From NCBI RefSeq assembly GCF_015595025.1, contig NZ_JADNRL010000019.1, forward strand, positions 272,225-336,224: a DNA stretch of 64,000 nucleotides. Reading direction: 5' to 3'. The notes under the pieces are model-generated. The model was not told the DNA's origin and did no database searches. It saw nothing but the letters and a program-made list of their open reading frames with translations. The stretch comes from Halomonas sp. KAO. Lineage in GTDB: Bacteria; Pseudomonadota; Gammaproteobacteria; Pseudomonadales; Halomonadaceae. The position numbers and the translations under genes were made by a program. This document shows, one piece after another, positions 13,320-42,963 of this stretch (positions are counted from its first letter, which is position 1; each line of letters begins with the position of its first letter).

Positions 13320-13691
13320 ATGCTACGTACCCGCTGGTTGAACGCCTTGCCGGCGCTCGCCCTGCTCCTACCCCCGGCACTTGCGGCCCACGCCGACTCC
13401 TCTTCACTCTCGAACCCGGAGCCTAGCCCAGAGATGATCCAGATCCATATCGGCGGCAGCGAAGGCACCCGCTACCATGGCAACCTGACCGTGTCATCGC
13501 AGGACGATACGCAGACCCACCGGCTGGAGGGCACCGCCCCCACTCAGCTGACCTACCCTGGTGAACAGGCCAGGCTGGAGCTGACCCAGCAGAGCCCGGG
13601 TAGTTTGACCATCGAGGTTATCAAGCGAGGTAATCGCAGCGTCTCACGCGTATCGGGTGTGGGGAGTCGCATTCAGGTATCGGTCAACTAA
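13320..13691 (+). CDS. Small exported beta-rich protein, possibly a CsgC/CsgH-like curli chaperone
   Basis: A 123-residue protein with a cleavable signal (MLRTRWLNALPALALLLPPALAAHA) and a mature part of alternating polar and beta-prone segments ending SGVGSRIQVSVN. I do not recognise it firmly. It lies just beyond csgA, converges on it across a shared terminator, and its size, export and predicted beta-sandwich character resemble CsgC/CsgH, the periplasmic proteins that stop curlin from aggregating too early. No CsgC-type CxC motif is visible. The functional label is inference from neighbourhood and general character only. Confidence 0.55.
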   Translation: MLRTRWLNALPALALLLPPALAAHADSSSLSNPEPSPEMIQIHIGGSEGTRYHGNLTVSSQDDTQTHRLEGTAPTQLTYPGEQARLELTQQSPGSLTIEVIKRGNRSVSRVSGVGSRIQVSVN

Positions 13692-13746
13692 CGAGGCGAA
13701 GCAATAGCAACACGAGCCGAAGCAATAGCAACATCCATTAATATGA

Positions 13747-13770
13747 AACCGGCCTCCTGGGAGGCCGGTT
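13747..13770. terminator. Bidirectional terminator between the small exported gene and csgA
   Basis: Hairpin AACCGGCCTCC-TG-GGAGGCCGGTT lies between two converging genes and can serve both. Short A-rich and T-rich flanks are present (ATATGAAA before it on the plus strand). No other structure competes in this interval. Confidence 0.8.
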
Positions 13771-13821
13771 GCTTTGGAGCAGATTCCTTTTGAGCCAGTG
13801 CTGCTCTTGAGGCAGGAGCTC

Positions 13822-14970
13822 TTACTGAACCACGAGAGCGTTGTTGCCCCAACCACTCTGAGTGGTGACAGCCCAGTTGCCTCCCCCAGTCTGGGTATGG
13901 GTCGCCGTGTTGAAGGCGCCATTGGCCTGCGAGATGTAGGAGAAGTTACCCACGCCTGCCTGGCTCACATTCGCATCGCCGAAGGCTCCGGTCTGGCTGA
14001 CCAGCGAGACGTTACCCAGGCCTGACTGGCTAACATCGGCGTCGTTGAGCAGCCCATCCTGATGCACATAGGAGTAGTTCCATTCCCCATCCTGGGAGAC
14101 GCTGGCCATATCACCGACACCACTCTGGTCGATATCGGAAGTATTCGCCCAGCCAGTCTGGCTGACATCGGCCCCATTGCCGGCACCACCCTGATCAATA
14201 TAGGAGGTGTTCGACATGCCGGCCTGGCTGACCTCGGCACCGTTAAGCACGCCACTCTGGTTAATCATGGAGTCGTTCCACGCGCCAGTCTGACTGACAT
14301 CGGCGCTGTTAAGAAGACCGCCCTGATTCAGCTCGGCGTAGTTCTTCTTACCAGACTGCTCGACACTGGAATCACCCACCAGCCCCGTTTGATTCACGTT
14401 GGCCGTGTTGTCACCACCCCAGATTCCCCAGGCACCATTGCTCTGGCTAACGGTGGAGTCGTTGAACGACCCAGTCTGATTGACGTTGGCGGTGTTATCA
14501 CTGCCGCTCTGATTGACCTCGGATTCGTTGTAGTAGTTGGTCTGATAAACATTGGCTTCCTGACGGTAGCCACGCTGATCGACACTGGATTTATGACCAA
14601 CACCATGCTGCTCAACGGTCGCATCATTGTTGCGGTCGCGCTGCTCGATACTAGAGTTATTGTAGGAACCCTTCTGGGTCACCTCGGCATCGTTGCCCCG
14701 ACCTGTCTGATAGCTGAAGGAGTCATTGCTCCAACCTTCCTGATGGATGCTTGCTTCCTGATAGGAGCCAGTCTGGAGCACCTCGGCATCATTGTAATCG
14801 CCAAGCTGAGTGATATTGGAGGTCTGATTACCGTTGCCACGATCCTGAGCGACCAGCGCATCATTGCCCCAGCCCGTTTGATAGGTGTTGGCAACGTTAC
14901 CACCGCTGGCCATCGCATGGCTGCTGATCATGGCGATAGAGGCGGCAAGTAAAGTCATCTTCATTTTCAT
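13822..14970 (-). CDS. csgA: Major curlin-repeat protein (CsgA-like amyloid subunit)
   Basis: Secreted amyloid subunit of 382 residues, about 2.5 times the length of enterobacterial CsgA. A signal peptide (MKMKMTLLAASIAMISSHAMA) precedes a short Gly/Asn-rich spacer and then 31 consecutive units of mostly 11 residues, each beginning Q-x-G and containing Asn at position 6, e.g. QTGAWNDSMIN and QSGVLNGAEVS. Two units make the classical 22-residue curlin repeat. Unit 2 has 13 residues, unit 14 has 18 (QSNGAWGIWGGDNTANVN), and unit 29 has 12. The protein ends SGWGNNALVVQ. Downstream of csgB, same strand; expected export through CsgG. Confidence 0.93.
   Translation of the reverse strand: MKMKMTLLAASIAMISSHAMASGGNVANTYQTGWGNDALVAQDRGNGNQTSNITQLGDYNDAEVLQTGSYQEASIHQEGWSNDSFSYQTGRGNDAEVTQKGSYNNSSIEQRDRNNDATVEQHGVGHKSSVDQRGYRQEANVYQTNYYNESEVNQSGSDNTANVNQTGSFNDSTVSQSNGAWGIWGGDNTANVNQTGLVGDSSVEQSGKKNYAELNQGGLLNSADVSQTGAWNDSMINQSGVLNGAEVSQAGMSNTSYIDQGGAGNGADVSQTGWANTSDIDQSGVGDMASVSQDGEWNYSYVHQDGLLNDADVSQSGLGNVSLVSQTGAFGDANVSQAGVGNFSYISQANGAFNTATHTQTGGGNWAVTTQSGWGNNALVVQ
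13825..14880 (-). repeat. Tandem 33-nt (11-codon) curlin repeat array in csgA
   Basis: Residues 31-382 of the curlin are a continuous array of about 31 units with glutamine in register every 11 residues; exceptions are units of 13, 18 and 12 residues. Alternate units tend to carry A.V and S.I before the next Q, giving a higher-order 22-residue (66-nt) period. The coding sequence diverges between units, so the array is old or under selection for protein rather than DNA identity. Confidence 0.92.
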
Positions 14971-15088
14971 GATTGATCCCCTTCGTATTGTGCCCTGGTT
15001 TAGCTATTGTTGGCATTCACCAGGAGGTCGTTACATGAAGTCGCTGACCCCAGTCGACTCCACAGCACCAGATGTCCATATTGATCTA

Positions 15089-15583
15089 TCAATGCTGGAT
15101 CACCTGGATGGCTGCCTGACCACGCGAGTGCTGTATTACCTCAACAGGCGCTCGACGCGTGGATCCCACTTGCATGATGCTCGCACTGCCGTGAACACCA
15201 CTCTGAACAATGGACGCTTGCTTGCCGACACCGCGTTGCTCGATGGTAGCCCCATGGCCATATCCCGATTGTGCGATGCTCGCCTCGAGATATCCGCCAG
15301 CCTGCAGCACCGCCGCGTCATGCTGCTGCCCCACCTGATCGATTTCGGCAAGGTTGTAGTAACCTCGCTGTACGATCAGTGCCTCCTGCCCTTGACCGGA
15401 CTGGAAGATATTGGCCTCATGACTGATACCGTCCTGGTCGGTTCTGGCCAGGTTATTGACCACAAAACTCGGCGACACCTGCCCGAACTCCGACTCGAGG
15501 TGCAGATCACCGGCATCAGCGGTCGGCGTCATCGATACCCCGGTAGCGAAAGCGATACAGCCAAGAGCCATTAACGTTTTCAT
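15089..15583 (-). CDS. csgB: Minor curlin / nucleator (CsgB-like)
   Basis: A 164-residue secreted protein with signal MKTLMALGCIAFATGVSMTPTADA and about eight curlin-type units (QRGYYNLAEID, QAGGYLEASIA, QSGYGHGATIE, QRGVGKQASIV, QSGVHGSASIM). The C-terminal part is richer in Arg and His (STRRAPVEVIQHSRGQ), as in CsgB, whose charged last repeat anchors it to the cell surface where it nucleates CsgA. The ATG at 15583 gives a proper signal peptide; the frame is open to 15649. It lies 118 bases upstream of csgA on the same strand. Confidence 0.88.
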   Translation of the reverse strand: MKTLMALGCIAFATGVSMTPTADAGDLHLESEFGQVSPSFVVNNLARTDQDGISHEANIFQSGQGQEALIVQRGYYNLAEIDQVGQQHDAAVLQAGGYLEASIAQSGYGHGATIEQRGVGKQASIVQSGVHGSASIMQVGSTRRAPVEVIQHSRGQAAIQVIQH

Positions 15584-15797
15584 AGGAAGTTCGCCTCGCC
15601 TCGTAATCATTGTTGTGTCATTTCTGATGTTTCTTGAGCGTTGTTTCATACCGCCCTTGATGCTTACAAGTATTTACATAAAGAAACGCATCAGCAATCA
15701 TCGTATTTCATTATTTTTGAAGGCGAGATAACTCATCATTTTGGCCTTGCTAGATCATCTTTTCTCATACTGAGAAAATGGCTCGCATCATCAAACG
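15584..15797 (-). promoter_or_regulatory. csgBA promoter region
   Basis: An AT-rich interval, unlike the GC-rich genes around it, between a strong terminator (15798-15835) and csgB. Because the terminator separates csgB from csgG, csgBA should have their own promoter here, as in E. coli where CsgD activates csgBA. I could not assign -35/-10 elements or a CsgD site with confidence. The remaining 143 bases up to csgG's stop hold no gene. Confidence 0.5.
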
Positions 15798-15835
15798 AAA
15801 CGGGCGCCGCTTCTCGCAGGAAGCGGCGCCCGTTT
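15798..15835 (-). terminator. Terminator after csgG
   Basis: A 16-bp perfect stem with a six-base loop: AAACGGGCGCCGCTTC (15798-15813), loop TCGCAG, then GAAGCGGCGCCCGTTT (15820-15835). It lies 144 bases beyond the csgG stop and ends the csgDEFG transcript before csgBA. Confidence 0.85.
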
Positions 15836-15978
15836 AACAGAGGTTTTTCTTCAGAAAAGAAGCCTAATACTACTACTACCTAGACTTGGTGTTACCTGAC
15901 AGGGCCTGAAAAAGCATTGGCAGCCAGCGACAGACTCCTTGACAACTACCGCTCCTCGACAATTTCCGCTCGGAAAGA

Positions 15979-16815
15979 TCAGAGCATTGGCACGGTTTCG
16001 TCACGGTAAGCCGCCAACACCTCATGGTCGGCATCTTCAGGATTCGCCAGGCTCCACAGCCCGCGATCGACCCCCTGGGTAATCAGATGGATCACCGCCG
16101 ACTCGACCGCCGACATCACCGCCATCTGGACCGGTTCGTTATGCGTAAAGCCCGCCTCGGCCTCGAGCAGACGCTGGAAGCTGACGAAGCGATAGACCCC
16201 GGCCCGCAGCTCGTGGGAGTAGATCGTCTTGCTGGTGGTGACATTCCCCAGCACCTCCCCCGTGGCGATATCCACCGCACGCAGGTTGATCGTGACCTGG
16301 TCGACCTGATACTCCCCCGAGGCGCCGATGCCGAAATACTCGGCACCGATACCGCCGGTCTTCATGTTGGAGTCGTAGGCGATGATCCCCCCCTCGAGCA
16401 GTACCCGCGCGGCATTCAGCGACGAGAGCTCATTCTCCCGGCCCATGCGTTCGAGGTTGGCACGTATGATGCGCCGCTCGGTCAGCAGGTTCTGCAGCCC
16501 CACACGCTCGAGAGGAATGAACCAGCCGGACTCGGCCAGCGCCGAGCTGAGCATGGCGGCGCCGCCCTGGGTCACGGCGGTGGAGAAGGTACTCGCCGGC
16601 TGGGGACGATACTGCCCCGTCTGGTCGCGGAAGTCGTATACCGCCGCCAGAATCCGCGAGCTGGGTGCCGGCAGGCTCTTGAGATCATCGTAGGTCGCTG
16701 TCCGCGGCGTCAGGGTGGCGGGTGCCCCCTCCAGGTGGTCGTAGGATGTCACCTGGCTGGCGCACCCACTCAGGGTCAACATGCCCGCGGTAACCAGTGT
16801 CGTGATGAGTTTCAT
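15979..16815 (-). CDS. csgG: Curli secretion pore lipoprotein CsgG
   Basis: Outer-membrane lipoprotein that forms the nonameric curlin export channel. The 278-residue product has a lipobox (MLTLSGCAS), then LPAPSSRILAAVYDFRDQTGQYRP, TRRIIRANLERMG-like helices, and the transmembrane hairpin region GGIIAYDSNMKTGGIGAEYFGIGASGEYQVDQVTINLRAVD, all characteristic of CsgG. The start at 16815 gives a normal lipoprotein signal. It is the last gene of csgDEFG, 34 bases after csgF. Confidence 0.96.
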   Translation of the reverse strand: MKLITTLVTAGMLTLSGCASQVTSYDHLEGAPATLTPRTATYDDLKSLPAPSSRILAAVYDFRDQTGQYRPQPASTFSTAVTQGGAAMLSSALAESGWFIPLERVGLQNLLTERRIIRANLERMGRENELSSLNAARVLLEGGIIAYDSNMKTGGIGAEYFGIGASGEYQVDQVTINLRAVDIATGEVLGNVTTSKTIYSHELRAGVYRFVSFQRLLEAEAGFTHNEPVQMAVMSAVESAVIHLITQGVDRGLWSLANPEDADHEVLAAYRDETVPML

Positions 16816-16849
16816 TATTCTGCTCCCTTGTCCCTGTCCGTGTATCCGC

Positions 16850-17293
16850 TCAGAACTGGCCCGACGGCTGGCCAAAGTTGACCGTCGTCTCTTCGCCGGT
16901 GCGCCGGTCGACGATATTCATCACGAAACCCCCATTCCCCAGGCTGCGAATCCGCACTCGCAGCGTCGAGCTCTCGATCACACTGGTGCGCCCCGCCTCC
17001 CCTTCCTTGGCATCATTGATGGCATCGTTGACCACCCCGGCCCTAAGGTCCTGCAGGAACAGATCGGTCTCCGACAGGTTGCCGAAATCCGGCGCATCGG
17101 GATCCTTGTTGTCATCCTGGGACTGCGCCTTGTTGAAGAGATAGCTGCCGTTGAGAGGGCTGCCCCCGAATGACGGGTTGATGGGCTCATACACCAGCTG
17201 GCCCGCCCAGGCGAAACCACTCCCCAGCAACAGGCTCGTCGTCACTACCCCTGCCGCCACTCTTGCCGTCATCCGCTGCTTTGTGCGTTTCAT
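16850..17293 (-). CDS. csgF: Curli assembly protein CsgF
   Basis: A 147-residue secreted protein that caps the CsgG pore and places CsgB at the surface. After the signal peptide the mature protein begins GQLVYEPINPSFGGSPLNGSYL, the conserved N-terminal CsgF segment that inserts into CsgG; the C-terminal half forms a beta domain. The ATG at 17293 has GGAG seven bases upstream; the frame is open to 17344. Lies between csgE and csgG. Confidence 0.96.
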   Translation of the reverse strand: MKRTKQRMTARVAAGVVTTSLLLGSGFAWAGQLVYEPINPSFGGSPLNGSYLFNKAQSQDDNKDPDAPDFGNLSETDLFLQDLRAGVVNDAINDAKEGEAGRTSVIESSTLRVRIRSLGNGGFVMNIVDRRTGEETTVNFGQPSGQF

Positions 17294-17312
17294 TGTCGTT
17301 CTCCTCGATGCA

Positions 17313-17831
17313 CTAGAGTTCTTCATCTGCCAGATCGGGGTCATCGGCCAGGGCTTCCGTCAGCGTCTGCCGAATCACCAGATTCTCCACCTGCTCCACC
17401 GCCGCCTGCACATACCCGTCGATATCGCTGAGACGGGGCGACATGGTGGCCTGATAGACCACACGGTTATTGTCCCGGGTGATCCAGACCTGGCTGCCCC
17501 AACGCGCCGAAGGTCGCTCATGCACCGTCAGCACCACGTTGTTCAACACCGGGCGCTCCAGGCTCAGCTGGCTGAACTGCCGATAGAAGGTGCGGCCGGT
17601 CATGGTCACGGTGCGGTCGATCACCAGGCCCGAGATCCCCGGCTCCTGCAGGCTGAACTGGCGCTCCAGCTCTTCCTCGGCCTGCCCGGGCGTCTCGATG
17701 GTCTCCTCCGACTCCTCGATCGTCATCGCCGGCTCATCGGGCGCCACCTGAGCCTGCGCCGGGCGGCTCCCTCCCCAGATCAGCGAAAGGAGCAGCACAC
17801 AACCCGCGACTAAGGCGTACTGTGGTTGCAT
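17313..17831 (-). CDS. csgE: Curli assembly factor CsgE
   Basis: Periplasmic adaptor of 172 residues that delivers curlin subunits to CsgG. It has a signal peptide ending AQAQ, an acidic linker (residues about 35-58) longer than in E. coli, and then the CsgE core SGLVIDRTVTMTGRTFYRQFSQLW-like segment with LTVHERPSARWGSQVWITRDN and the C-terminal helix. An AAGGGAG site precedes the ATG. Its start overlaps the csgD stop by 22 bases, so the two genes are translationally coupled. Confidence 0.95.
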   Translation of the reverse strand: MQPQYALVAGCVLLLSLIWGGSRPAQAQVAPDEPAMTIEESEETIETPGQAEEELERQFSLQEPGISGLVIDRTVTMTGRTFYRQFSQLSLERPVLNNVVLTVHERPSARWGSQVWITRDNNRVVYQATMSPRLSDIDGYVQAAVEQVENLVIRQTLTEALADDPDLADEEL

Positions 17832-18514
17832 CTCTTGGCTCCCTTGCGTTGGTCGAAATGAAACAGCGGAGGGGGGGCGCCCAGATTCTGGCGTGCCCAG
17901 TTGACCGCCTGGGTACGGTTGTGCACATCGATCTTCTTGAAGATGTTGTAGAGGTGCGACTTCACCGTGTGCTCGCTGACGAACAGGCGATCGGCGATCT
18001 GCATATTGGAGGCACCGGAGCCGAGCAGCCCGATGATCTCCAGCTCACGCTGGGTCAGGCCACAGGCCGGCCGGTAAGAGTTGATGGACTGCTTGCGGAA
18101 GAACTCGATCAGGTGCGACATCAACGAGCGTGACATCCAGAGATGCCCTTCCAGCAGCCGACCGATTCCCTTGCAGATCATGTCCAGCGAATCCGTGCGA
18201 TAGAACACGCCCGACAGATGTGCATAGGAGAGTACCTCGGCTGCCTCATCACCATCTTTCAGATTCAGTGCCGCGATGCACAGTCGATGACCACGACTCG
18301 ACGCCTCCTCCTGCCACGCCTGCAGCAGGGCGTCATCGACATGATCATGATCCAGCAGCACCACTGAGGTCTCCTCAGCAACGCTGGAAGGAGCATCGGC
18401 GGGCGAAAGCAACGTGACAGTGCAGTCGACGTGGTCATTGATGTAGTCGATGAATAATGACGATTGCGGATTCTGCTCCGTGACAAACGCCACCCCCCCA
18501 TTCCGTTGGCTCAT
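17810..18514 (-). CDS. csgD: LuxR-family regulator CsgD
   Basis: A 234-residue transcription regulator with an N-terminal receiver-like domain and a C-terminal LuxR helix-turn-helix (residues about 153-210: LTQRELEIIGLL, NMQIADRLFVSEHTVKSHLYNIFKKI). As first gene of csgDEFG it is expected to activate curli genes, and in enterobacteria also cellulose/EPS synthesis. The N-terminal domain has VVLLDHDHV at the usual beta-3 position, but acidic phosphorylation residues are incomplete, as in E. coli CsgD. Given the flanking polysaccharide operons, it may control them too; that is inference. Confidence 0.92.
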   Translation of the reverse strand: MSQRNGGVAFVTEQNPQSSLFIDYINDHVDCTVTLLSPADAPSSVAEETSVVLLDHDHVDDALLQAWQEEASSRGHRLCIAALNLKDGDEAAEVLSYAHLSGVFYRTDSLDMICKGIGRLLEGHLWMSRSLMSHLIEFFRKQSINSYRPACGLTQRELEIIGLLGSGASNMQIADRLFVSEHTVKSHLYNIFKKIDVHNRTQAVNWARQNLGAPPPLFHFDQRKGAKRCNHSTP

Positions 18515-18823: not shown

Positions 18824-18846
18824 GGGGCTGCCTAAACGGCAGCCCC
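18824..18846 (-). terminator. Terminator after the UDP-glucuronate epimerase operon
   Basis: Stem GGGGCTGCC (18824-18832) pairs with GGCAGCCCC (18838-18846) around a five-base loop. On the minus strand it is followed by CTTTCATC, a modest T-rich tail. It lies about 100 bases beyond the epimerase stop and separates that operon from csgD. Confidence 0.7.
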
Positions 18847-18947: not shown

Positions 18948-19970
18948 TCAGACCCGATAAAAATCCCGATACCAGGCCACGAAGTTCGCCACCCCTTCCG
19001 TCACCGTGGTAGAAGGCTTGTAGCCCACCGCCTTCTCCAGCTCGCTGGAGTCGGCGAAGGTATCCGGTACGTCGCCGGGCTGCAGAGGGAGCAACTCCTT
19101 GATCGCCTCCTTGCCTAAAGCCTGCTCGATCGCCTCGATATAGGCGGAGAGCTTGACCGGGTTGTTGTTACCGATATTGAAGATGCGATACGGCGCGTTG
19201 CTGGAGGCCGGGTCAGGTGCATCGCTGTTCCACTCGGGATTGGGCGCGGCGATATCATCGCTGGCACGGATCACCCCTTCCACGATGTCATCAATGTAGG
19301 TGAAGTCTCGGGTGTGTTGGCCATGGTTGAATACCGGAATCGACTCGCCGGCCAGGGTCTTCCTGGTGAAGAGAAACAGCGCCATATCGGGGCGCCCCCA
19401 GGGGCCATACACAGTGAAGAAGCGCAAACCAGTGGTGGGCAAGTCGAACAGGTGGCTGTAGCTATGCGCCATCAGCTCATTGGCCTTCTTGGTAGCGGCG
19501 TAGAACTGCAGCGGATGGTTGACGCCCTCGTGCTCCGAGAACGGCATGCTGGTGTTGGCACCATAGACGCTGCTGGTACTGGCATAGGTGAGATGCTTAA
19601 CTGGGTGATGACGGCAGGCCTCCAGGATATTGGTGAACGCCACTATATTGCTGTGCACATAGGCATGGGGGTTCTCCAGCGAGTAACGCACCCCCGCCTG
19701 AGCGGCCAGATGGATCACCCGCTCGGGTTTGTGACTCTCGAACACAGCGTTGACCGCCGCCTGATCGGCCAGGTCCTCACGCACGAACACATACTCGGCA
19801 CCAGTACGTGAGGCAGTCTCATTCAAAATCTCGAGCCGCGCCTCCTTAATCGTCGGATCGTAATAGTCGTTGACCTCATCGAAGCCGATTACGCTGTCGC
19901 CGCGCTCGAGCAGACGCTTGGCGGTGTGGAAACCGATAAAGCCGGCATTGCCGGTGACGAGAACCTTCAT
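18948..19970 (-). CDS. UDP-glucuronate 4-epimerase-like SDR enzyme
   Basis: A 340-residue extended short-chain dehydrogenase. NAD-binding GNAGFIG is at residues 7-13; the catalytic Ser-Tyr-Lys set lies in YASTSSVYG and [44 protein letters not shown] is characteristic of the UDP-glucuronate 4-epimerase (CapI/LspL/WbnF) group. It would convert UDP-GlcA to UDP-GalA for the polysaccharide. It is the last gene of the minus-strand run Wza-Wzb-Wzc-ABC-P-loop-epimerase; 164 bases separate it from the P-loop gene. Confidence 0.9.
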
Positions 19971-20134: not shown

Positions 20135-20905
20135 CTAGGCGCCTTCTGCCAGACGGGCAAGGAAGGCGTTAATTCGATGTTGATGAGTAGCCAGGTCATC
20201 CTCGGCCTTGAGCATTAGTACCGGTCGCGCGTGCCGCTCGAAGAGTCGGCAGACGGCCAGGCCCCAGGCCAACTCTTGCTCGACGTGGGCCAGGGCCGCC
20301 TCTTCGCCAAGATAGCCGAGCCAGTCGTTGCCGCCACCGGGGCGCTGTCTGTGGCGACTGGCCAGCTGCGCCATGACCCGCTCGACACTTGTCTCGAGCC
20401 GTATCAGTGAACGGCCGGCAAGTAGTCCTGCGAGCCCTGGCGGTTCTGGATCCTCGGCCGCCAGGGCTGCCAGTTGGGCGGAGAAGTTATGGCAGATGCC
20501 TTCCTCGCTGACCATGCCACGCGGATAGTGGCGACTGCGCCAGGCAATATCGTGACGCAGCGTGGTGGTGATGTAGTCCACCAGGCGTAGCTTGTGGCTG
20601 GGGGTTAACGGCAACCTCTCCAGCGCCTGAAGGCTTCCGAACAAGAGTCTTGCGTAGAGCTCCCCCACATGGCCGCCGGGTAGCTCCGGGAAGGCATCGC
20701 GGCCAATTAGTATGCGCTCGGCACGCATCCACTCGTTGTGGAACGCCAGTTGACGATAGAGGGTGGTCTTGCCCGCTCCGGAGGGCGCAATCATCTCCAC
20801 CCGCTGGCCATGGGTGGCACTCGGTGCGCCGCGGGGAAGCGGCGGCGTGCGCATTAACGCAAATCCACTACGACTCAGGGTAGACTTGAGCAAATGTTTT
20901 AGCAT
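20135..20905 (-). CDS. P-loop protein of unknown function in the capsule operon
   Basis: A 256-residue protein I cannot assign. It has a Walker A motif (EMIAPSGAGKTTLYRQLAF, residues about 38-52) near the N terminus, preceded by a basic, proline-rich segment, and a C-terminal half with LIRLETSVERVMAQLASRH, which resembles the adenylate/sulfotransferase-type kinases that read a base or anion. No signal peptide or membrane segment is evident. AAGGA seven bases upstream supports the ATG at 20905. It follows the ABC flippase by 10 bases, so it is in the same operon. A small-molecule or glycan kinase is a reasonable guess, not shown. Confidence 0.6.
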   Translation of the reverse strand: MLKHLLKSTLSRSGFALMRTPPLPRGAPSATHGQRVEMIAPSGAGKTTLYRQLAFHNEWMRAERILIGRDAFPELPGGHVGELYARLLFGSLQALERLPLTPSHKLRLVDYITTTLRHDIAWRSRHYPRGMVSEEGICHNFSAQLAALAAEDPEPPGLAGLLAGRSLIRLETSVERVMAQLASRHRQRPGGGNDWLGYLGEEAALAHVEQELAWGLAVCRLFERHARPVLMLKAEDDLATHQHRINAFLARLAEGA

Positions 20906-20915
20906 GACGACATCC

Positions 20916-28557: not shown

Positions 28558-28668
28558 CGCAACAGATCAATATTCGAGAAGGGGCCACCCTTCCAGCTGG
28601 GGCCAACTATCCAATAGAGGACGTGACTCGGCCTGGGTGCCATGGGTTACGGGGAACAAGGGGACAAT

Positions 28669-34062: not shown

Positions 34063-34076
34063 TAAGGGGCGAGGGA

Positions 34077-34572: not shown

Positions 34573-35699
34573 ATGGCATTTATCTCCTCCAGCATGACGG
34601 TATTGACCCGAGTGACCTCGAACCTCTCTTCGGCGATTCTACGTGAATGAATCCCCATCGCTTGCAGGCGATCAGGTTGCTCGATCATTCGACGCATGGC
34701 GTTGACCAGCGAGATCACACAACGCGGCGACACCAAATGACCGTTATATCCCTCTTGCACGGTTTCGCGACAGCCTGGGGTATCGGTGGTGATAATGGCT
34801 CGCCCCATCGAAAGCCCCTCGAGTAGCGTTCGGGGTATTCCTTCACGGTAGTAGCTCGGAAGAACGACCGTCGTTGCCGAGGCAATCGCCGGACGCACAT
34901 CATCAAGCTGGCCCAGATATTCGAGCCGACCATCAGTCAACCAGGCCTGCAGCTCCGCCGGGGCGATGGCATCGGGACCGAGGTCTGGCTCACCAACCAA
35001 CTGGAATCGAACTTGCGGATACTCCTGGCGTAGTAGGCGCGCCGCTTCGGCGTACTCACGAATTCCCTTAGAGGCAAAAAGCCGGGCGACCAGCACGAAG
35101 ACAGGCGTATCCGGCAGTGCGGTGACACCAAAATGCTCGATATCCACTCCCGAACCATTCACCACTACAGCGTAAGTCTTGCCGAGGATCTTTCTGTCAA
35201 TGAACAACTGCATATCATCAGGGTTCTGAAAGAAGACCGTGTGTGAGCAGGCCATGGCCAGCCGGTATAGGCCTTCAATGCAACGCTGGAGAGCACGCCG
35301 TTTTATAGTCATTGAATCCTCGATAAAGGCGTAGCCAAGACCAGTGATCAGCGAGAAGCGAAACGGGATTCCGGAAAAACGCGCGGCCAGGCTGCCGTAG
35401 ATTACCGGCTTGATGGTGTAGCCCATGACATGCGTGGGCGACACGTGCCGCATCAACCGATATAGCGCTTTTAGCGTGGCGAGGTCTGCCAGTGGATCCA
35501 TGCCGTTCCTCTGCATGGGTACGTCGTGAGCCTGGATCCCCTGGGCAACCAGACGCTGGTGTATCTCGCTATCAGCCGAAAGGCTGGGGGCCGCAGCGTG
35601 AACCTCAAAACCATCCTCCTGTAATGCCAGCATCAGATGCCAGCGGAAGTTGATCAGTGACGGCGCATATCCAGCAATCAACAGGAAACGACGTGTCAT
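34569..35699 (-). CDS. Glycosyltransferase family 4 protein (WfgS/PglA-like)
   Basis: A 376-residue retaining GT-B glycosyltransferase: N-terminal TRRFLLIAGYAPSLINFRWHLMLAL, linker HVMGYTIKPVIYGSLAAR, and the C-terminal nucleotide-sugar-binding domain with PVFVLVARLFASKGIREYAEAARLL and PSYYREGIPRTLLEGLSMGRAIITTDTPGCRETV, which holds the EX7E motif region. It should add a hexose or HexNAc to the lipid-linked repeat. The ATG at 35699 overlaps the upstream stop (ATGA); the frame is open to 35870 but without a site. It precedes the decayed sugar transferase. Confidence 0.92.
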   Translation of the reverse strand: MTRRFLLIAGYAPSLINFRWHLMLALQEDGFEVHAAAPSLSADSEIHQRLVAQGIQAHDVPMQRNGMDPLADLATLKALYRLMRHVSPTHVMGYTIKPVIYGSLAARFSGIPFRFSLITGLGYAFIEDSMTIKRRALQRCIEGLYRLAMACSHTVFFQNPDDMQLFIDRKILGKTYAVVVNGSGVDIEHFGVTALPDTPVFVLVARLFASKGIREYAEAARLLRQEYPQVRFQLVGEPDLGPDAIAPAELQAWLTDGRLEYLGQLDDVRPAIASATTVVLPSYYREGIPRTLLEGLSMGRAIITTDTPGCRETVQEGYNGHLVSPRCVISLVNAMRRMIEQPDRLQAMGIHSRRIAEERFEVTRVNTVMLEEINAI

Positions 35700-36877
35700 G
35701 AGCTCTGCCCCTCGGAGCTCCTGGTGACGCCTGGATCTACGGCCCCTGACAATGTTGACTGCCACAACGATGTATATGCGTTTACCATATGATCGATCCC
35801 ATATTCGTCGCGAATCCGCTGTCGGCAGCGCTGCTGTCGGGCTCGCCAAGCACCGGGGTGCTGTCGACATTCTGCCAGCGCCTTGGAAATGGCATCAGCC
35901 AGGCCAGAACTGTCACACGGGGGAACGACCCAACCATCACCGGCCACGATTCGAGCGGAATCCCCCACATCTGTCACCACGCAGGGCGTACTTGCCGCCA
36001 TGGCCTCGGCAACGACATTGGGAAACCCTTCACCGCCTTGACTGGACAATATATGCAGATCTAGTGCCCCCATCACCAGCGGAATATCGGTACGTTTTCC
36101 CAACGCCACAACGCTGTCGCCCAAGTCCCGGCTAACGATCCATCGATCTACTTCGGGGTTATCTCGCGTGACCTCATCGCCCACCAGTAGGCAGCGCACC
36201 GCAATGCCCTGCTGACGAAGCTTGACGATGGCATCTAGCAGGTTTTGATGATCTTTCTGTGCATGGCAGCGCGCCACCATGCCGATCAGCAGGGTATCAT
36301 CATCGACGCCGAGCGAGTGGCGAAGCACACGCGCTTCACTCGGGTCCACATTCCAGTGAGAGAAGTTGTAGCCATTGGGAATGACCCGAAGCTTGTCCGC
36401 ACAGTAGCCCAACGCCTGATGCACCTGGGCCGCCCTTTCGGCGCAGCAGACGATCGCGATGGGTAACCAGGGCGAGAGCCAGGCGCACCACCGAGCGATC
36501 AAGATCGACGAGCGGGCGCTATGACTGGGCTCCAGGCCGGTATGGCGAATGCCCCAGAAGATTCGCCGCTGTCCTGCTAGGCGGGCAACCAGGCCCCCCA
36601 GAAGATCAGGGTGATACATCCAGGTCTGAACGATGTCGAAGCGCTCCTGCCTGAGCAGCTTCCACAGCCGCCACAGGGGTCCCAGGCGCAACTTGTCACG
36701 CGGCATATCGAGATTGATGACGCGAAAGCCTCGCTCGCTCAGCATCTGCCCATAACGTGCCTCTGCCATCAGGCTGATGACCGTATGTTGGTTGTCGGGA
36801 TCGTTGGTGCATAGCCGGAAGAGCACCGCCTGCGCTCCTCCTTCTCCCAGGCTGGTAATGATATGTGCGACTCTCAT
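35696..36877 (-). CDS. Glycosyltransferase family 4 protein
   Basis: A 393-residue GT-B enzyme starting MRVAHIITSLGEGGAQAVLFRL, the typical glycine-rich N terminus of GT4. The C-terminal half has VIPNGYNFSHW, LLIGMVARCHAQKDHQNLLDAI and SSQGGEGFPNVVAEAMAASTPCVVTDVGDS, with the catalytic EX7E (EGFPNVVAE). Cytosolic or membrane-associated, it would add a sugar to the undecaprenyl-linked repeat unit. Both ends overlap neighbours by four bases, so the three consecutive GT4 genes are translationally coupled. Confidence 0.92.
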   Translation of the reverse strand: MRVAHIITSLGEGGAQAVLFRLCTNDPDNQHTVISLMAEARYGQMLSERGFRVINLDMPRDKLRLGPLWRLWKLLRQERFDIVQTWMYHPDLLGGLVARLAGQRRIFWGIRHTGLEPSHSARSSILIARWCAWLSPWLPIAIVCCAERAAQVHQALGYCADKLRVIPNGYNFSHWNVDPSEARVLRHSLGVDDDTLLIGMVARCHAQKDHQNLLDAIVKLRQQGIAVRCLLVGDEVTRDNPEVDRWIVSRDLGDSVVALGKRTDIPLVMGALDLHILSSQGGEGFPNVVAEAMAASTPCVVTDVGDSARIVAGDGWVVPPCDSSGLADAISKALAECRQHPGAWRARQQRCRQRIRDEYGIDHMVNAYTSLWQSTLSGAVDPGVTRSSEGQSS

Positions 36878-38100
36878 GCTCGTTCCTCTGGGCAGAAGTG
36901 GCTGACGGCCTCCACAGAGGGCTGTGGTTCAACGACTTCGAGGGCCTCGTGAAGATAGCGTCGTGCAATACGGGATAGGTTGAAGTCATCGGCACGCGCC
37001 TGTCGCGACTCGGGTGTGCCTACCGGCGCCTGCAGCGCACGCGTCATCGCCGTGACAAGGCGTTCGACACTCTCCGGCGGGACCAGCACCCCGTGCCTGC
37101 CGTGCTCGAGGATATCGGCCGAGGCCCCGGGGCAGTGGGTCGCCACAATGGGTACCCCGGCCACCAGGGCATCGAGCAGCACATTGGGAAAGCCTTCCCG
37201 CCGAGACGACGACACAAAGAGTCGGCTGAGCGCCATGACGTGCTGCGGCTGCGCCACGAAGCCGGGCAGATGCACACGCTCCTCGACGCCCAGCTCTCGT
37301 GCCTGGGCCAGCAGCGTCTGATGGAGGGGGCCATCACCGAGGATGGCCAGATGCAGCCGAGGGTCCTGCAGTCGAGCGAACGCCGCCAGAAGCAGGTCAA
37401 AGCCCTTGGCCTCTACCAGGCGGCCGGCGCTACAGATCAGCTGCGCCTCACGGGGAAGCAACTCAAGCCAGCTCGGCATGGCTGTCGTGCCCGCCGCCGA
37501 TATTGAGCCTGGCGTGGACGATGCTGAGGCCCGCGTGGATGATGTTAAGGCCGACGCAGAATGAGGTGTCACCGGATTGCCGATATGGCAGCAACGGCCG
37601 GGATGAATGCCGTCTCGCTGCAAGGTCGCCAGCACATCGTCGGCGATCACCACCATGGTGTCGGCCCTGGGATAAAGCCGCGTCATCATCCAGCGCAGTG
37701 CGGCTTGGCGAATCCCCGGCGGCACCGTTTCGTCGCTGCGCTTCGCGCAGGTTTCCCGGATCGCGATGCGACATGGCCGGCCGGCCAGTTGCCACGCCAG
37801 AAGCGCGATTACATTGGCTTCGCTCATGGTGGAGAGCAGCGCCTGGGGTCGCTCTCGGCGCAGGTAACCGAGCAGCGGCAGCATGGCATGTGCAACCCGC
37901 TTCTTGCCGAGATCCACGATGCGCACGTCTGATGAAACAGCGCCGACCAGCGGGCCGCCGCTTCTTGCGACAACAAGATCTACGGGCGCCGCCGACTGAC
38001 GAGCGAATTCATTGGCCAGGTTGACGAAAACACGCTCGGCTCCCCCCCCACTTAACGAGGGTATAAATAGGGTGACAGGTTGTATTGATTGAGATGTCAC
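36874..38100 (-). CDS. Glycosyltransferase family 4 protein
   Basis: A 408-residue GT-B enzyme: VTLFIPSLSGGGAERVFVNLANEFAR at the N terminus and LICSAGRLVEAKGFDLLLAAFARL plus SSRREGFPNVLLDALVAGVPIVATHCPG at the C terminus, where the second residue of EX7E is replaced (EGFPNVLLD). I favour the GTG at 38100 because AAGGAG lies six bases upstream, although the frame runs to an ATG at 38136 that overlaps the previous stop. A low-complexity, Ser/Ala/Thr-rich insert (about residues 175-205) separates the two domains. Confidence 0.9.
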   Translation of the reverse strand: MTSQSIQPVTLFIPSLSGGGAERVFVNLANEFARQSAAPVDLVVARSGGPLVGAVSSDVRIVDLGKKRVAHAMLPLLGYLRRERPQALLSTMSEANVIALLAWQLAGRPCRIAIRETCAKRSDETVPPGIRQAALRWMMTRLYPRADTMVVIADDVLATLQRDGIHPGRCCHIGNPVTPHSASALTSSTRASASSTPGSISAAGTTAMPSWLELLPREAQLICSAGRLVEAKGFDLLLAAFARLQDPRLHLAILGDGPLHQTLLAQARELGVEERVHLPGFVAQPQHVMALSRLFVSSSRREGFPNVLLDALVAGVPIVATHCPGASADILEHGRHGVLVPPESVERLVTAMTRALQAPVGTPESRQARADDFNLSRIARRYLHEALEVVEPQPSVEAVSHFCPEERA

Positions 38101-38135
38101 TATGGACTCCTTTACGCAAGATGTTGTTGTAATCA

Positions 38136-39335
38136 TCAAGATGTCACCGTCGTGAGCGGTCGGAGCACGTCTTGCCTGGTGTAGCCATCATCATCCAGAA
38201 GAGATACACGCTTATGTGACTGATCGATCAAGCGCAAGATGGCGTAGGCGAAAGTTACCGCAAACGCGAACCACAACCCCTTGTGAAACTCCCAATTGGC
38301 CAGATTCATCGGAATTAAAAGTGCCCCCCCCATGACCATGGCTGCTATACGCCCACGATCCAAGCAAAGAAAAAGGTAGATGAGGCCGAGCCATAGTCCC
38401 AGGTACATGACCAGCCCCACAATTCCGAGCCCAAACACCACCGACAGGAAGGCATTGTGTGGAGCAAGCCCGATGATCTCGTGAAAACTTCCAATGCCAG
38501 CCCCGAACAAGGGGTTGCCGAGGCCATCCATTCCATGCTGCCAGATATTGCCGCGACCCGAGAAATCGCCGGAGCTAATCAGGTCACCGGCCATCATGTA
38601 ACGCATCAGCAGGTACTCGATATCGGCCTGCACCACCAGCTGGTAGACCAGCATGGTGAGCGCGACAGGAACAACCAGTATCAGCTTGTAGATAAAGGTG
38701 AGCTTTAGCATGATGGAAAGGCTCATCAACACGTAAAACCCCATGCCTCCTCTTGACCCAAGAAGAAAGATGGAAAGACCAATAATGCACCATGAAAACA
38801 GATAGAAAACACGCGCCTTGAAGCTTGCGGAATCCAGCAAGACAAAGAGACAAACACCGGACATCACGAACAGGAAACTCATCCAGTTGGGATTGAAGTT
38901 ATCCACCACAATTCGACGAATGCTGTCCGATGATGCAGCATAGGAGATCACGGTTATCGCACCGTATACAGCACCCATAAGATAGGGTACGCAGATCACC
39001 TTTAGTCCGTAGCAGATACCCGCCAGACTAATCATCAGCGCCATCACCATGACCTGCACCATGGAGAACCAGCTGATATAGGCCTCATGGGATGAGGGCG
39101 CCCAAGCGATGGAGAGTCCGCCATACACAATAAACATCAGCATGGCAAGCCCAAGCATATAGACGGCCTGATTGACTCGCCCCCCCGCGAGCACCAGGAA
39201 GAATACCGCTGGTGCGGCGGCAATGCCGATCACACGATTGATGGTGCCCAGGCCATCGATGACCAGCACATTTTCGATCGGTATGGTAAAGATCACCGGA
39301 AACAGCAGGATGGCAACAATATGTATGGATCGCAT
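38136..39335 (-). CDS. O-antigen polymerase/ligase-like membrane protein (Wzy)
   Basis: A 399-residue polytopic membrane protein with ten or more hydrophobic segments and a periplasmic loop containing DLISSGDFSGRGNIWQHGMDGLGNPLFGAGIGSFHEIIGLAPHNAFL. The GRGxxW...NPLFGxGxGSF...HNAFL pattern is that of Wzy/O-antigen ligase proteins. In a glycosyltransferase operon this is most likely the repeat-unit polymerase. Codon usage is somewhat more AT-rich than the GT genes around it, common for polymerases acquired by transfer. Confidence 0.88.
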   Translation of the reverse strand: MRSIHIVAILLFPVIFTIPIENVLVIDGLGTINRVIGIAAAPAVFFLVLAGGRVNQAVYMLGLAMLMFIVYGGLSIAWAPSSHEAYISWFSMVQVMVMALMISLAGICYGLKVICVPYLMGAVYGAITVISYAASSDSIRRIVVDNFNPNWMSFLFVMSGVCLFVLLDSASFKARVFYLFSWCIIGLSIFLLGSRGGMGFYVLMSLSIMLKLTFIYKLILVVPVALTMLVYQLVVQADIEYLLMRYMMAGDLISSGDFSGRGNIWQHGMDGLGNPLFGAGIGSFHEIIGLAPHNAFLSVVFGLGIVGLVMYLGLWLGLIYLFLCLDRGRIAAMVMGGALLIPMNLANWEFHKGLWFAFAVTFAYAILRLIDQSHKRVSLLDDDGYTRQDVLRPLTTVTS

Positions 39336-39474
39336 CGCTTGTGACCTCTACCTGTGTCACCGCCCGACACCTTATGCAGCATGTCAGGGAGGGTGATCCA
39401 TCAATATGTCCTGGTCACTCTTGCCTCGGCAACACCGTTAGCACGGCAATAGAATTGGCCCGGTGACCCCTAGA

Positions 39475-40557
39475 TCAGGTCTCTGCCTGCCCCATCGGGG
39501 ATGTTTTTCGCCTGATCCACTCCCTTACGCCACGGTAATGGTCGATGCTCTCAGGCCAGGCGAGCAGTAGCCTGGCCAGCAGGCGATCGGGAAAGCCAAG
39601 CTTGTCGCCATAGCTGAAATAGAAGTCACGCCGTTCCTTGTCGCTGATCTCGGGAGACTTCAGGATTTTTAAGATCATGTGCCAGTTGGCGATATCGAAA
39701 CTTCGTGTGAAGCGATACTTCAGCCATGCATCCATGCGCCTGTTGGAAATGATTCGTCGGCGATAGTGCACTAGTTTCTTGTTGATATCATTGACACTGC
39801 TCGACCAAGACCCTGGAACACGAAATCGATAAAGACTCATCACTTCAGGAAGGTAGCATGCACCTCCCCGTTGTGACGCAAGCATATTACGATAGACATC
39901 GGCAACCATCTTATCCTCCTGCCCTTTCATAAAACGCAGAAGCTCGAATGCAACTCTCGATCTCACTATCACGGACTGGGTGGGAATACTTCCATACCGT
40001 TTCTCGATAATTTCTTCGGCACTCACCACCCTTGGTGAATTTCCGTAATATCCAGTTATACTCTGGCGCCCCAGGCCGAAGTAGTGCTTCTCTGCGGGAT
40101 GGAAAGCCATATCGCACTCGGGATTGGCCTCAAGCATTTCTATCTGACGCTGCAGTTTATCGGGGCTTTTCCAGGCATCGTCACCTTCGCAGAAGGCGAT
40201 ATAACGCCCACGACACATGGGAAAGGTATGTTCTTCCGGAGAAATACCCTGACGCAACTGGTTCTCGAGATGAAGGTTGGCCTGGATCAGGTTGGGATAG
40301 CCATTCAAGTAACCTCGAATGATATCCGCCGTACCATCGTCTGACGCATCATCATTGACCACGACCTCAAAAGGAAAGCTGGTTTTCTGGGCCAACATTC
40401 CATCTAATGCTGATGCAATATACTGCTCATGGTTATATGTCGCACAGAAGATAGTGACCAATGGTGAGCCCTCAGAGGTTGCCATGGGCCAGGTCGCCAT
40501 GATCTCCTCTTCACTAACCATCGGTTTCATGCCCAGCCCCTTCAGACTTGATTTCAT
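39475..40557 (-). CDS. Glycosyltransferase family 2 protein
   Basis: A 360-residue GT-A enzyme with PLVTIFCATYNHEQYIASALDGMLAQ at the N terminus, the nucleotide-binding VVVNDDASDDGTADII and YIAFCEGDDAWKSPDKLQRQ (metal-binding DxD region EGDD). It probably adds an early sugar of the repeat. AGGAG seven bases upstream supports the ATG at 40557. It follows the second Wzc by 30 bases; 139 bases separate it from the polymerase. Confidence 0.92.
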   Translation of the reverse strand: MKSSLKGLGMKPMVSEEEIMATWPMATSEGSPLVTIFCATYNHEQYIASALDGMLAQKTSFPFEVVVNDDASDDGTADIIRGYLNGYPNLIQANLHLENQLRQGISPEEHTFPMCRGRYIAFCEGDDAWKSPDKLQRQIEMLEANPECDMAFHPAEKHYFGLGRQSITGYYGNSPRVVSAEEIIEKRYGSIPTQSVIVRSRVAFELLRFMKGQEDKMVADVYRNMLASQRGGACYLPEVMSLYRFRVPGSWSSSVNDINKKLVHYRRRIISNRRMDAWLKYRFTRSFDIANWHMILKILKSPEISDKERRDFYFSYGDKLGFPDRLLARLLLAWPESIDHYRGVREWIRRKTSPMGQAET

Positions 40558-40587
40558 TGCATGACTCCTCACCTTGATCCCTTGCCG

Positions 40588-42963
40588 TTAATAAGCATAT
40601 TGGTAGTCACCGTCGCCATAGCTGACGGCTGCTCTGCGTTCCATGGCGTTGAGAATCGCCCCCTGGAGGGTAACACCGGCGTTTTCCAGGCGTCGCTTCG
40701 CAATATTGAGTTCACGGCTGGTAGTGGTTTCGAACATCGCTACCATCAGCGTGGTGCCGCACTGGGCGCCTAACACCGCAGGATCGGTGACCGTCAGCAC
40801 TGGTGGGCTATCGATGATGACCAGGTCATACCGCTCGCTGACCCGGGCCAGAAAGGGCTTGAGCGAGGCGCCGAGCAACAGTTCCGAGGGATTAGGAGGT
40901 GCCAGGCCCCGTGAAATATAGTCGAGGCCGCGCACTCTAGAGTGGCGAATGGCCTGCTCATCGGAAAGCCGGCCCGCTAGCAGCTCGGAGAGCCCGCCCT
41001 GTGCATGGGTGCCAAAGGCATGATGCAGTTGCCCTCTGCGCATGTCTGCGTCGATCACTAGCACTCGCTGGTTAGACAGGGCGCAGACTGCCGCGAGGTT
41101 CACGGTGATGAAGCTCTTGCCAACACCAGGACTGGGGCCGGTGATCATTAACCTATTGTCCTGGGAATCGAGCATGGTGAAATGCAGGCTAGTGCGTAGG
41201 TTGCGCAAGGCCTCGATACTGATATCGGTGGGTTCCACCTCCACCAGTATCTCGGAGAACACGTTACGATAATGATGTTCGTTACGGTGCCTCACCCGCT
41301 TGTTCAATTTTTTCTGCGCATTGGCGCGCGGTATGCTCGCATAGACCGGTAAGCCGGTATCCTCGATCTGTTCCGGTGTCTCGATACCGCGCTTGAACAG
41401 CGCTCGCGTCAAGACAAAGCCGACCGCAGCCATGGCACCCAGCACGGTGGCCAGGATCACCAGGAATGACTTGCGCGGCTCAACCGGCAGTACGCCCACC
41501 AGGGCGTCATCGATGATCCGTACATTGCCCACCATTCCCGCCCTGGCGATCTCGAGTTCCTGTATCTTGTTGAGCACATCGACATAGATCACCTGGGTGG
41601 CCTCCACGTCCCGGGTGCGACTGATGATCTCCTGCTGAGCGCCGGGTAGCTCACTCACCCTGGCCTCCAGTTCGGCCCGCTCGTCGAGCAGTATCTGCCT
41701 TTGATGGATCAATGCCTGGTAGGTCGGGTGGCTGCTGGTGTAACGCTGAACCAGTACTGCCTCCTCAAACTCGAGTTCGCTGAGTTGACTATCGAGGGCG
41801 ATAAACTGCTGGATGGCGCCCTGAGCCTCGGCGCTGAGATCGACACTCTGCTGCGCCATGCGATATTCGTTCAGCCTCTCCTCGGCAGCTGCCAGGTGGT
41901 TACGCAACTCCGGGGCCTGCTCCTTTAGGAAGGCAAGGCTCTGGTCAGCCTCTGCTGACTTGCGCTCGACGTTCTGGGTGAGGAAGGTTTCGATCACGGC
42001 GTTCAGGGATCGGCGTATTTCGGCTCGGTCGTCACCGGTCAGCATGAGCCTCAGCATCCCGGTACTGGCGCTGGCACCAAGAGGGCTGTCCTGCCCGAGC
42101 TCATTCACGCGGAGACGCTTGGCAAGGGATGTTATGGCTGCGGAGCGCGAACGCTTGATCAAGGTGAACTGGGCACCCGGAACAGCTTCGAGGGTAGCGA
42201 TGCGAAGCTTAACCTCGTCATTCAAAAAGCGCTCGACCCTGCCGACCTTCCCCTCTCCCAGGAGCCGAGCCCTCCCTTTATAGATCCGCGTAAGCGAGTA
42301 ACGGCCCTCGCCAAGCGCAGTGACGACCAGCGGCTGATTACGCAGGTGGTCGGCCACTTCGAGCAAGCCGAGCGTTAAGGTTTCACCGTGCCACACGGCC
42401 GTACGCGCCAGATCAAACCCTGGTGGGGTGAACGGGCTCTGCAAGAATTCAGGTAGTTCGATACCTGCCTTGAAGACCTCGGGCAAGGTGTCGGTGGGAA
42501 TGATACTTGGCAGCCGGATTTTCTCTGGCAACCAACCACCCAGATGTATATCGCGATCGACAAATTCTGGGCGCGAGAGCTGCTGTCTCCGAATAGCCCC
42601 CCCCACTAGCGGTAGCTCCTTGGGGATGATCACATTATCCAATTCGATGCGGTCGACAACCTGTCCAAGCACCATGCGTGACTGGAGTATCTGCACCTCC
42701 GCGGCGGTGCTGCTTTCGGAATAGCCAGCCATCGAGTCCCCCATCACATTCGCCAGATCACCGAGGGGGCTCACCGACGAACGTCTCTCGACTTGCACCA
42801 GAGCGTCGCCTCGGTAGATGGGCGTCGCCACGATGGCATAGAAAATCCCCCCGCACGCAAATCCAAGTGTAATCATGCCGATCAGCCACCTACGATCAAA
42901 TAGCTGGCTAATGATGCGACTAATCTCGATTTGACTAGCGAACTGTGCCGTCAACGTATTCAT
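40588..42963 (-). CDS. Second Wzc/Etk-type tyrosine autokinase (paralogue)
   Basis: A 791-residue polysaccharide co-polymerase with the same plan as the Wzc at 22890-25121: Wzz domain, coiled-coil periplasmic part, two membrane helices, and a kinase domain with GPSPGVGKSFITVNLA, VLVIDADMRRGQLHH and LVIIDSPPVLTVTDP. The C terminus YGDGDYQYAY carries four Tyr. Shared stretches such as RGDALVQVERRS.VSPLGDL and STAAEVQILQSRMVLGQVVDR show recent paralogy, but this copy has about 45 extra residues in the N-terminal periplasmic part. It has no wza or wzb beside it and heads the glycosyltransferase operon. Confidence 0.93.
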   Translation of the reverse strand: MNTLTAQFASQIEISRIISQLFDRRWLIGMITLGFACGGIFYAIVATPIYRGDALVQVERRSSVSPLGDLANVMGDSMAGYSESSTAAEVQILQSRMVLGQVVDRIELDNVIIPKELPLVGGAIRRQQLSRPEFVDRDIHLGGWLPEKIRLPSIIPTDTLPEVFKAGIELPEFLQSPFTPPGFDLARTAVWHGETLTLGLLEVADHLRNQPLVVTALGEGRYSLTRIYKGRARLLGEGKVGRVERFLNDEVKLRIATLEAVPGAQFTLIKRSRSAAITSLAKRLRVNELGQDSPLGASASTGMLRLMLTGDDRAEIRRSLNAVIETFLTQNVERKSAEADQSLAFLKEQAPELRNHLAAAEERLNEYRMAQQSVDLSAEAQGAIQQFIALDSQLSELEFEEAVLVQRYTSSHPTYQALIHQRQILLDERAELEARVSELPGAQQEIISRTRDVEATQVIYVDVLNKIQELEIARAGMVGNVRIIDDALVGVLPVEPRKSFLVILATVLGAMAAVGFVLTRALFKRGIETPEQIEDTGLPVYASIPRANAQKKLNKRVRHRNEHHYRNVFSEILVEVEPTDISIEALRNLRTSLHFTMLDSQDNRLMITGPSPGVGKSFITVNLAAVCALSNQRVLVIDADMRRGQLHHAFGTHAQGGLSELLAGRLSDEQAIRHSRVRGLDYISRGLAPPNPSELLLGASLKPFLARVSERYDLVIIDSPPVLTVTDPAVLGAQCGTTLMVAMFETTTSRELNIAKRRLENAGVTLQGAILNAMERRAAVSYGDGDYQYAY

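Follow-up and report, generated by a model that had tools for sequence, protein, structure and literature searches.

Background

Curli and matrix polysaccharides are usually linked by regulation and not by gene order. Here we describe a locus of Halomonas sp. KAO, contained in a stretch of 64,000 nucleotides (contig NZ_JADNRL010000019.1, positions 272,225 to 336,224; hereafter the window), in which a complete csgDEFGBA curli operon lies between two polysaccharide modules. We conclude that it is probably an extracellular-matrix island of strains near Halomonas icarae, which sits in a hotspot beside the nqr genes and has passed between strains on at least one occasion. The closest named record by CsgG is H. 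icarae D1-1 (99%).

Passages of a curli survey (PMC3521004) name Halomonas among the curli genera, assign a minor role to horizontal transfer, and report csgH in Alphaproteobacteria, with csgC restricted to Enterobacteriales and Aeromonadales. The locus resembles the gammaproteobacterial curli (type VIII secretion) systems of those passages in its complete csgDEFG and csgBA; unlike them, csg of one lineage appears here to have moved with a polysaccharide locus, and a different small companion takes the place of csgH or csgC. The Escherichia coli group 4 capsule operon gfcABCDE-etp-etk, in the available portion of PMC8592465, shares with the island the order gfcA-D, homologues of Wza, Wzb and Wzc and a small Thr-containing GfcA-like gene, whereas the island has wza-wzb-wzc divergent from gfcABCD and a curli operon nearby. 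A divergent arrangement is mentioned in the same portion for the orf1-wbfDCB locus of Vibrio anguillarum. Finally, the island CsgD belongs, like V. cholerae VpsT (excerpts of PMC3359988 and PMC8754643), to the LuxR/CsgD family, and its WMSR aligns with the WLTR of VpsT, in which R134A is reported to disrupt binding of cyclic di-GMP (c-di-GMP; excerpt of PMC3359988). Unlike VpsT, the island CsgD is encoded in the curli operon, and csg promoters show no enrichment of the strict V. cholerae T-box. Among the matches listed, no report of a curli operon inside a capsule locus was found in the open-licence literature.

A curli operon in a polysaccharide hotspot

The curli genes, csgDEFG-csgB-csgA, occupy positions 13,822-18,514 on the minus strand and are flanked by polysaccharide modules on both sides:

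13822-14970, minus strand: csgA, a curlin of 382 amino acids with many repeats (Pfam Curlin_rpt, 10 stretches)
15089-15649, minus strand: csgB (Pfam Curlin_rpt, 2 stretches; homologues at the same place in relatives)
15979-16875, minus strand: csgG (Pfam CsgG, 1.2e-77)
16850-17344, minus strand: csgF (Pfam CsgF, 1.4e-19)
17313-17831, minus strand: csgE (Pfam CsgE, 6.2e-27)
17810-18514, minus strand: csgD, a VpsT-type LuxR regulator with a WMSR motif (Pfam GerE and a VpsT-like receiver)

The CsgG pore, CsgE, CsgF and curlin-repeat CsgA and CsgB thus lie in one cluster by Pfam, as in curli systems. Between csgG and the csgB-csgA pair lie ~330 bases that carry their own conserved boxes, and csgB and csgA probably form a transcript separate from csgDEFG. 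At the locus L157:5021-7450, a second CsgD-like gene and an open reading frame (ORF) of 455 amino acids lie upstream of csg; second CsgD-like genes are present in several relatives too.

The site of the island is a polysaccharide hotspot beside nqrF, delimited in the window by the following features:

4366-4797, plus strand: left flank gene of the hotspot, 143 amino acids (same place in relatives; blastn similarity to genome G154 ends at ~4770)
43206-43480, no strand: right boundary of the island, before nqrF (flank-level similarity to genomes G188, G099 and G154 restarts about here)

In relatives, the interval between gene 4366 and nqrF holds other polysaccharide genes or next to none. G154 is almost empty there: its blastn similarity to the window breaks off at 4770 and picks up again at 43480, ~116 bp lying in between. 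The island spans ~4,770-43,480 (~38.7 kb). A preliminary description of the sequence had placed csgDEFGBA amid polysaccharide modules on either side and listed wza/wzb/wzc, gfcABCD, glycosyltransferases and a second wzc; Pfam bears this gene list out, with gfcB weak and gfcA unmatched. The extent then given, 13320-42963, is too small, as a polymerase-like gene (7267-8535) and most of the left module fall outside it. Between the window genome (G000) and G099, right-flank DNA is 96% identical and the mfd proteins 98%, with only 66-81% identity in the island interior; the contents of the island have therefore been replaced.

Linkage of curli and capsule export genes among relatives

To measure linkage, we searched 90 genomes of the genus and scored CsgE and YjbH as linked when they lay on one contig within 60 kb. 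CsgE was found in 20 genomes, YjbH in 49 and both in 17, of which four were linked (G000, 12 kb; G099, 41.5 kb; G210, 42 kb; G188, 54 kb). A fifth island genome is G039 (Halomonas jincaotanensis), in which one contig carries csg and, 15 kb away, the left flank gene 1692, and another extends from nqrA past wzc and gfc to the contig end; the csgE-YjbH distance is at least ~44 kb if the two contigs adjoin. The tight packing in G000 is thus partly a local feature. In the other 12 of the 17 genomes, CsgE and YjbH are not on one contig within 60 kb: csg and gfc lie more than 2 Mb apart by position on one chromosome in four (G156, G209, G212 and G218) and on different contigs in eight, some of them drafts in which close linkage across a gap is possible. 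Nevertheless, none of the 12 has csg or gfc inside the nqr hotspot, whose flanks (gene 1692 and mfd) are on one contig. Of the 17 genomes, five thus have both modules in the hotspot and the remaining 12 have neither there (Fisher p 1.6e-4, with kinship ignored).

These 12 genomes rule out that the two gene sets are routinely linked in the genus. The preliminary description had named routine separation of the two gene sets in relatives as the observation that would speak against it, and at genus scale this is largely what we see (12 of 17). In a sample of 151 genomes of the family, CsgE was present in 47 and YjbH in 51; none of the 13 double-positive genomes outside the genus has the two near each other on one contig (in eight they share a contig at a distance of more than 900 kb by position, and in five they are on different contigs). 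We also inspected named csg loci, namely the best 80 of 185, each taken with at most 10 kb of flanking DNA to either side, and some with less where a contig ended. Homologues of the window polysaccharide genes, ABC-exporter matches excluded, were near csg in four of the 80, all from island genomes. For these taxa, such low co-occurrence fits a link through regulation and not gene order.

At least one of hemW, rdgB, hemL and mnmE lies near csg in 53 of the 80 named loci (hemW, rdgB, hemL and AAA33 are names that we presume for csg-neighbour genes; their domains are from Pfam). None of the five island genomes has a complete csg at this usual rdgB-hemL site. In G000, G099 and G188, hemL, the AAA33 gene and rdgB are adjacent there without csg; G210 is similar with broken frames, and the csg-less genomes G154 and G052 show the same arrangement. 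In G039, ~3.2 kb at the usual site carry a leftover csgD, a 5' stub of csgE (65% identity over 34 residues) and an IS110-like ORF. The leftover csgD is 96.5% identical to that of the sister Halomonas korlensis (G190) and 54% identical to the island csgD of G039. We take the adjoining ORF (L232:10025-11104) to be IS110-like from its motif.

A second kind of neighbourhood was seen in six of 16 csg neighbourhoods of the genus, where pgaA, pgaB and pgaC lie between csgA and a small gene of the 13320-13691 type. Among the named loci, a pgaABC(D)-like operon separates csgA from the small gene in five of 80 (L153:12746-18726, with equivalents in L154, L157, L159 and L160). The usual csg-site flanks were seen in four of the six pga-bearing loci and lay outside the stretch fetched in two; in the one copy scanned with Pfam, the fourth ORF had no match. 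Curli genes of the genus are thus joined to polysaccharide genes in two ways, in the nqr-hotspot island and with pgaABC.

Gene histories

In a tree of the core gene mfd (30 genomes), G039 groups with G190 and G000, G099 and G188 group together, so that the distribution of the five island genomes needs two changes. In csgDEFG trees (31 and 16 rows), by contrast, the five form one clade with the pairs G000+G188 and G099+G039, and the csg data reject G039+G190 (approximately unbiased (AU) test, p 8e-6) and G000+G188+G099 (p 0.0036). A wza-wzb-wzc-gfcBCD tree (11 rows) has the same two pairs, and the export genes reject G039+G190 (p 1e-6) and G000+G188+G099 (p 2e-79); this tree replaces a first one of 15 rows, from which four loci lacking gfc were dropped. 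Both pairs persist in a quick tree of 51 gfc copies. The pairing of G099 with G039 in the csg and wza-gfc trees, contrary to the core tree, argues for at least one exchange of the whole block, in which csg and the export genes moved together. A clade of all five island genomes for gfc, seen with 11 rows, was broken with 51. The earlier view of a co-inherited matrix system thus holds inside the five-genome group, in the shared site and in the agreeing trees of one strain pair, and largely fails at genus scale.

We propose the following account. In most relatives with curli, csg lies near rdgB and hemL and the gfc/wza locus elsewhere, and in five genomes both lie in the hotspot; block exchange would most simply have occurred by recombination in the conserved flanks. 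CsgG, CsgE and CsgF would secrete CsgA, which CsgB would nucleate into a long fibre, and a small beta-sandwich protein may help to keep curlin unaggregated. CsgD, switched by c-di-GMP through WMSR, would drive csg and probably the gnat/degT unit, and Wza-Wzb-Wzc with GfcABCD would export one matrix polysaccharide.

Regulation and alternative explanations

The closest solved protein to CsgD is VpsT (3kln, 115.8 bits); a solved CsgD receiver (5xp0) scores 42.3 bits. The receiver domain, in which WMSR aligns with WLTR, contains W[FLM][ST]R, which we assume to be the VpsT-type c-di-GMP motif. This motif is found in 101 of 114 CsgD-like ORFs from csg loci (some genomes counted twice) and is missing from all six Aeromonas ORFs and a few of Halomonadaceae, including two of the genus (G115 and G211). 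CsgD therefore resembles the c-di-GMP-binding VpsT, and binding by CsgD itself is predicted.

Two motifs, box1 and box2, were derived from 25 sequences upstream of csgB and csgD in 13 genomes and scanned over the window; box2 matches at csg promoters were assigned by hand from coordinates. Both occur in one promoter region of the left module:

11706-12030, no strand: promoter region shared by the divergent gnat and degT; the two csg-type boxes lie at 11887-11906 and 11928-11941

Here, box1 scores 16.8 bits (p 0.002, the floor of 500 shuffles), the strongest box1 match of the window, and box2, ~40 bases further on, 12.3 bits (p 0.006). The second wzc, abc and pglF have weaker upstream matches to one or other box. 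Of 11 island gaps outside the training set, five reached p<0.05 for box2 and two for box1, against zero and one of eight control gaps (multiple tests uncorrected). Across all island genomes, box1 outside csg was found 15 times versus 5.4 expected, in csg-less polysaccharide loci 11 versus 5.0, and in housekeeping stretches 1 versus 1.5. As an island-wide signal box2 was rejected, with 14 matches outside csg promoters versus 12 in shuffles. The strict V. cholerae T-box was likewise rejected as a CsgD site (present in one of 18 regions upstream of csgB and two of 20 upstream of csgD, versus means of 1.5 and 2.0 in shuffles); a loose T-box was commoner than in shuffles for csgD (14 of 20 versus 6.8) and not for csgB (4 of 18 versus 5.0). 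Joint regulation of csg and polysaccharide operons is suggested by the boxes, which are a lead and not proof. For the earlier notion of a single system in the functional sense, the boxes at gnat/degT speak in favour, and the wza/gfcA region, where neither was found (p 0.95 and 0.37), speaks against.

The strongest alternative to an exchanged island is a single matrix regulon, in which c-di-GMP-bound island CsgD would itself switch on csg together with the island polysaccharide operons by direct action, as VpsT acts on vps in Vibrio. It draws on the WMSR motif, on VpsT as the best solved relative and on the box matches at degT/gnat and, more weakly, at abc, pglF and the second wzc. However, wza and gfcA have no box, box2 outside csg does not exceed shuffles, box1 is also enriched where csg is absent, the strict T-box is not enriched in csg promoters, and the link of the boxes to CsgD is itself putative; we regard such a regulon as possible but somewhat doubtful.

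A little less plausible, in our judgement, is that csg and gfc are chance neighbours, taken up separately by a hotspot that collects surface genes, with no shared function or selection. The 12 genomes that keep the two apart, gfc of the same lineage without csg in G184, the other history of G210 gfc and the boxless wza/gfcA region speak for this reading. It does not readily account for the finding that the same five genomes have both in the hotspot and the other 12 neither, the G099-G039 pairing in both trees contrary to the core tree, or the pgaABC operon beside csg in six of 16 neighbourhoods.

Several observations also weigh against an exchanged matrix island. In the 51-copy gfc tree, G210 falls elsewhere and the csg-less G184 is sister to G099+G039; as read from the trees, co-transfer is seen for one exchange and not for all five island genomes, and the gfc module appears also to have moved without curli, as in the G184 lineage. 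Linkage in G039 and csg completeness in G099 depend on contigs that end inside the locus, and G210 is a metagenome-assembled genome, 76% complete. No recombinase or integrase was recognised by Pfam among the window ORFs scanned, small ORFs not all being included, and no tRNA was found in the window, where direct-repeat ends were not searched. The boxless wza/gfcA region and the box2 counts point the same way.

Vertical relocation, in which csg entered the capsule locus in a common ancestor and later losses produced the scattered pattern, is very improbable: G000, G188, G099 and G210 are indeed close in the mfd tree, but G039 is sister to H. korlensis, whose csg sits at the usual site, it keeps a leftover of the usual-site copy while its island copy pairs with G099, and the AU tests on csg and export genes disfavour it.

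A small secreted companion of curli

One further gene converges on csgA:

13320-13691, plus strand: small secreted beta-sandwich protein, a curli companion that is CsgH-like by position only (AlphaFold model, PDB comparison)

The family is conserved beside curli genes in Halomonadaceae, with a homologue in 53 of the 80 named loci. Like the curli inhibitors CsgC and CsgH in the available part of PMC4838910, it is a small secreted beta-sandwich protein adjoining curlin genes. In that part, CsgC is marked by a CxC motif and CsgH by a distant cysteine pair; none of the 53 homologues has a cysteine after residue 30. As CsgC or CsgH by sequence the protein was rejected, with no sensible Pfam or NCBIfam match and nothing below E 0.3 among PDB sequences. 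In the comparison of its predicted fold with PDB, CsgH (2N59) is at rank 46, tied with unrelated beta-sandwiches.

Polysaccharide genes of the island

The polysaccharide genes are, from left to right:

4830-11705, minus strand: left polysaccharide module (Pfam), comprising the next seven genes
4830-5459, minus strand: sugar transferase (Pfam)
5441-6082, minus strand: formyltransferase (Pfam)
6147-7010, minus strand: PhyH protein (Pfam)
7267-8535, minus strand: Wzy-like protein (Wzy_C 61.6 bits, cut-off 31.7)
8522-9745, minus strand: ATP-grasp protein (Pfam)
9582-10925, minus strand: pyridoxal phosphate (PLP) decarboxylase (Pfam)
11073-11705, minus strand: GNAT protein (Pfam)
12031-13250, plus strand: DegT-type aminotransferase (Pfam; listed ORF 11919-13250, homology starting at residue 38; start at 12031 read from the sequence)
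18948-19970, minus strand: NAD-dependent sugar epimerase/dehydratase (Pfam; 88-92% identity in the other four island genomes)
20135-20959, minus strand: P-loop protein (Pfam)
20916-22745, minus strand: MsbA/PglK-like ABC exporter (Pfam; NCBIfam matches under equivalog cut-offs)
22890-25121, minus strand: wzc (Pfam)
25236-25673, minus strand: wzb (Pfam LMWPc)
25695-26885, minus strand: wza (Pfam Poly_export, SLBB, Wza_C)
27494-27766, plus strand: gfcA (sequence only)
27781-28557, plus strand: gfcB (weak YjbF match, 17.4 bits versus cut-off 25.9)
28642-29487, plus strand: gfcC (Pfam GfcC 22.3 bits, cut-off 20)
29451-31637, plus strand: gfcD/YjbH (Pfam, 2.1e-217)
31966-34062, plus strand: membrane nucleotide-sugar dehydratase (Polysacc_synt_2 5.7e-121; PseB/FnlA-like below cut-off)
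34569-42963, minus strand: three GT1 glycosyltransferases, a Wzy-like protein, a GT2 glycosyltransferase and a second wzc (Pfam), the last three as follows
38136-39335, minus strand: Wzy_C-like protein (27.6 bits, below the 31.7 cut-off)
39475-40572, minus strand: GT2 glycosyltransferase (Pfam)
40588-42963, minus strand: second wzc (Pfam)

With gfcABCD including a GfcD/YjbH barrel, the locus belongs to the group 4 capsule/YjbEFGH-type export systems, GfcB lying below its cut-off and GfcA being called by sequence only. GfcA has no Pfam match; its listed ORF (27272-27766) is too long, and the translation shows a signal-peptide-like start at ~27494 and a Thr-Gly tail. The gfcB call is backed by position and by homologues at the equivalent place in relatives. 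Of the two polymerase-like genes described before, 7267-8535 stands above the Wzy_C cut-off and 38136-39335 falls below it. The dehydratase at 31966-34062 is presumably of the PglF/WbpM type.

The exporter at 20916-22745 and the P-loop protein are a candidate lipid-linked glycan flippase. No Wzx was recognised among the window ORFs scanned, and one PF01943 match lies elsewhere in the genome. Related ABC exporters recur in polysaccharide loci of relatives, and the exporter and P-loop pair is found in G188 and G210. In the left module, a formyltransferase, an ATP-grasp protein and a PLP decarboxylase occur together (5441-10925), a set that suggests an unusual N-formyl or amino-acid decoration.

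Implications

The exchange of the island would qualify the view, in passages of PMC3521004, that horizontal transfer is minor in the spread of curli. We tentatively raise the idea, itself rather unlikely, that curli is a serotype-like, exchangeable part of the capsule locus: amyloid subunits, their regulator and a polysaccharide exporter would move jointly at the nqr hotspot, and fibre and glycan, governed by a single c-di-GMP switch, would diversify as matched partners. These genomes offer a natural set of strains in which curli has apparently moved into, and been exchanged with, an export locus, and in which one can ask whether fibre and glycan must match.

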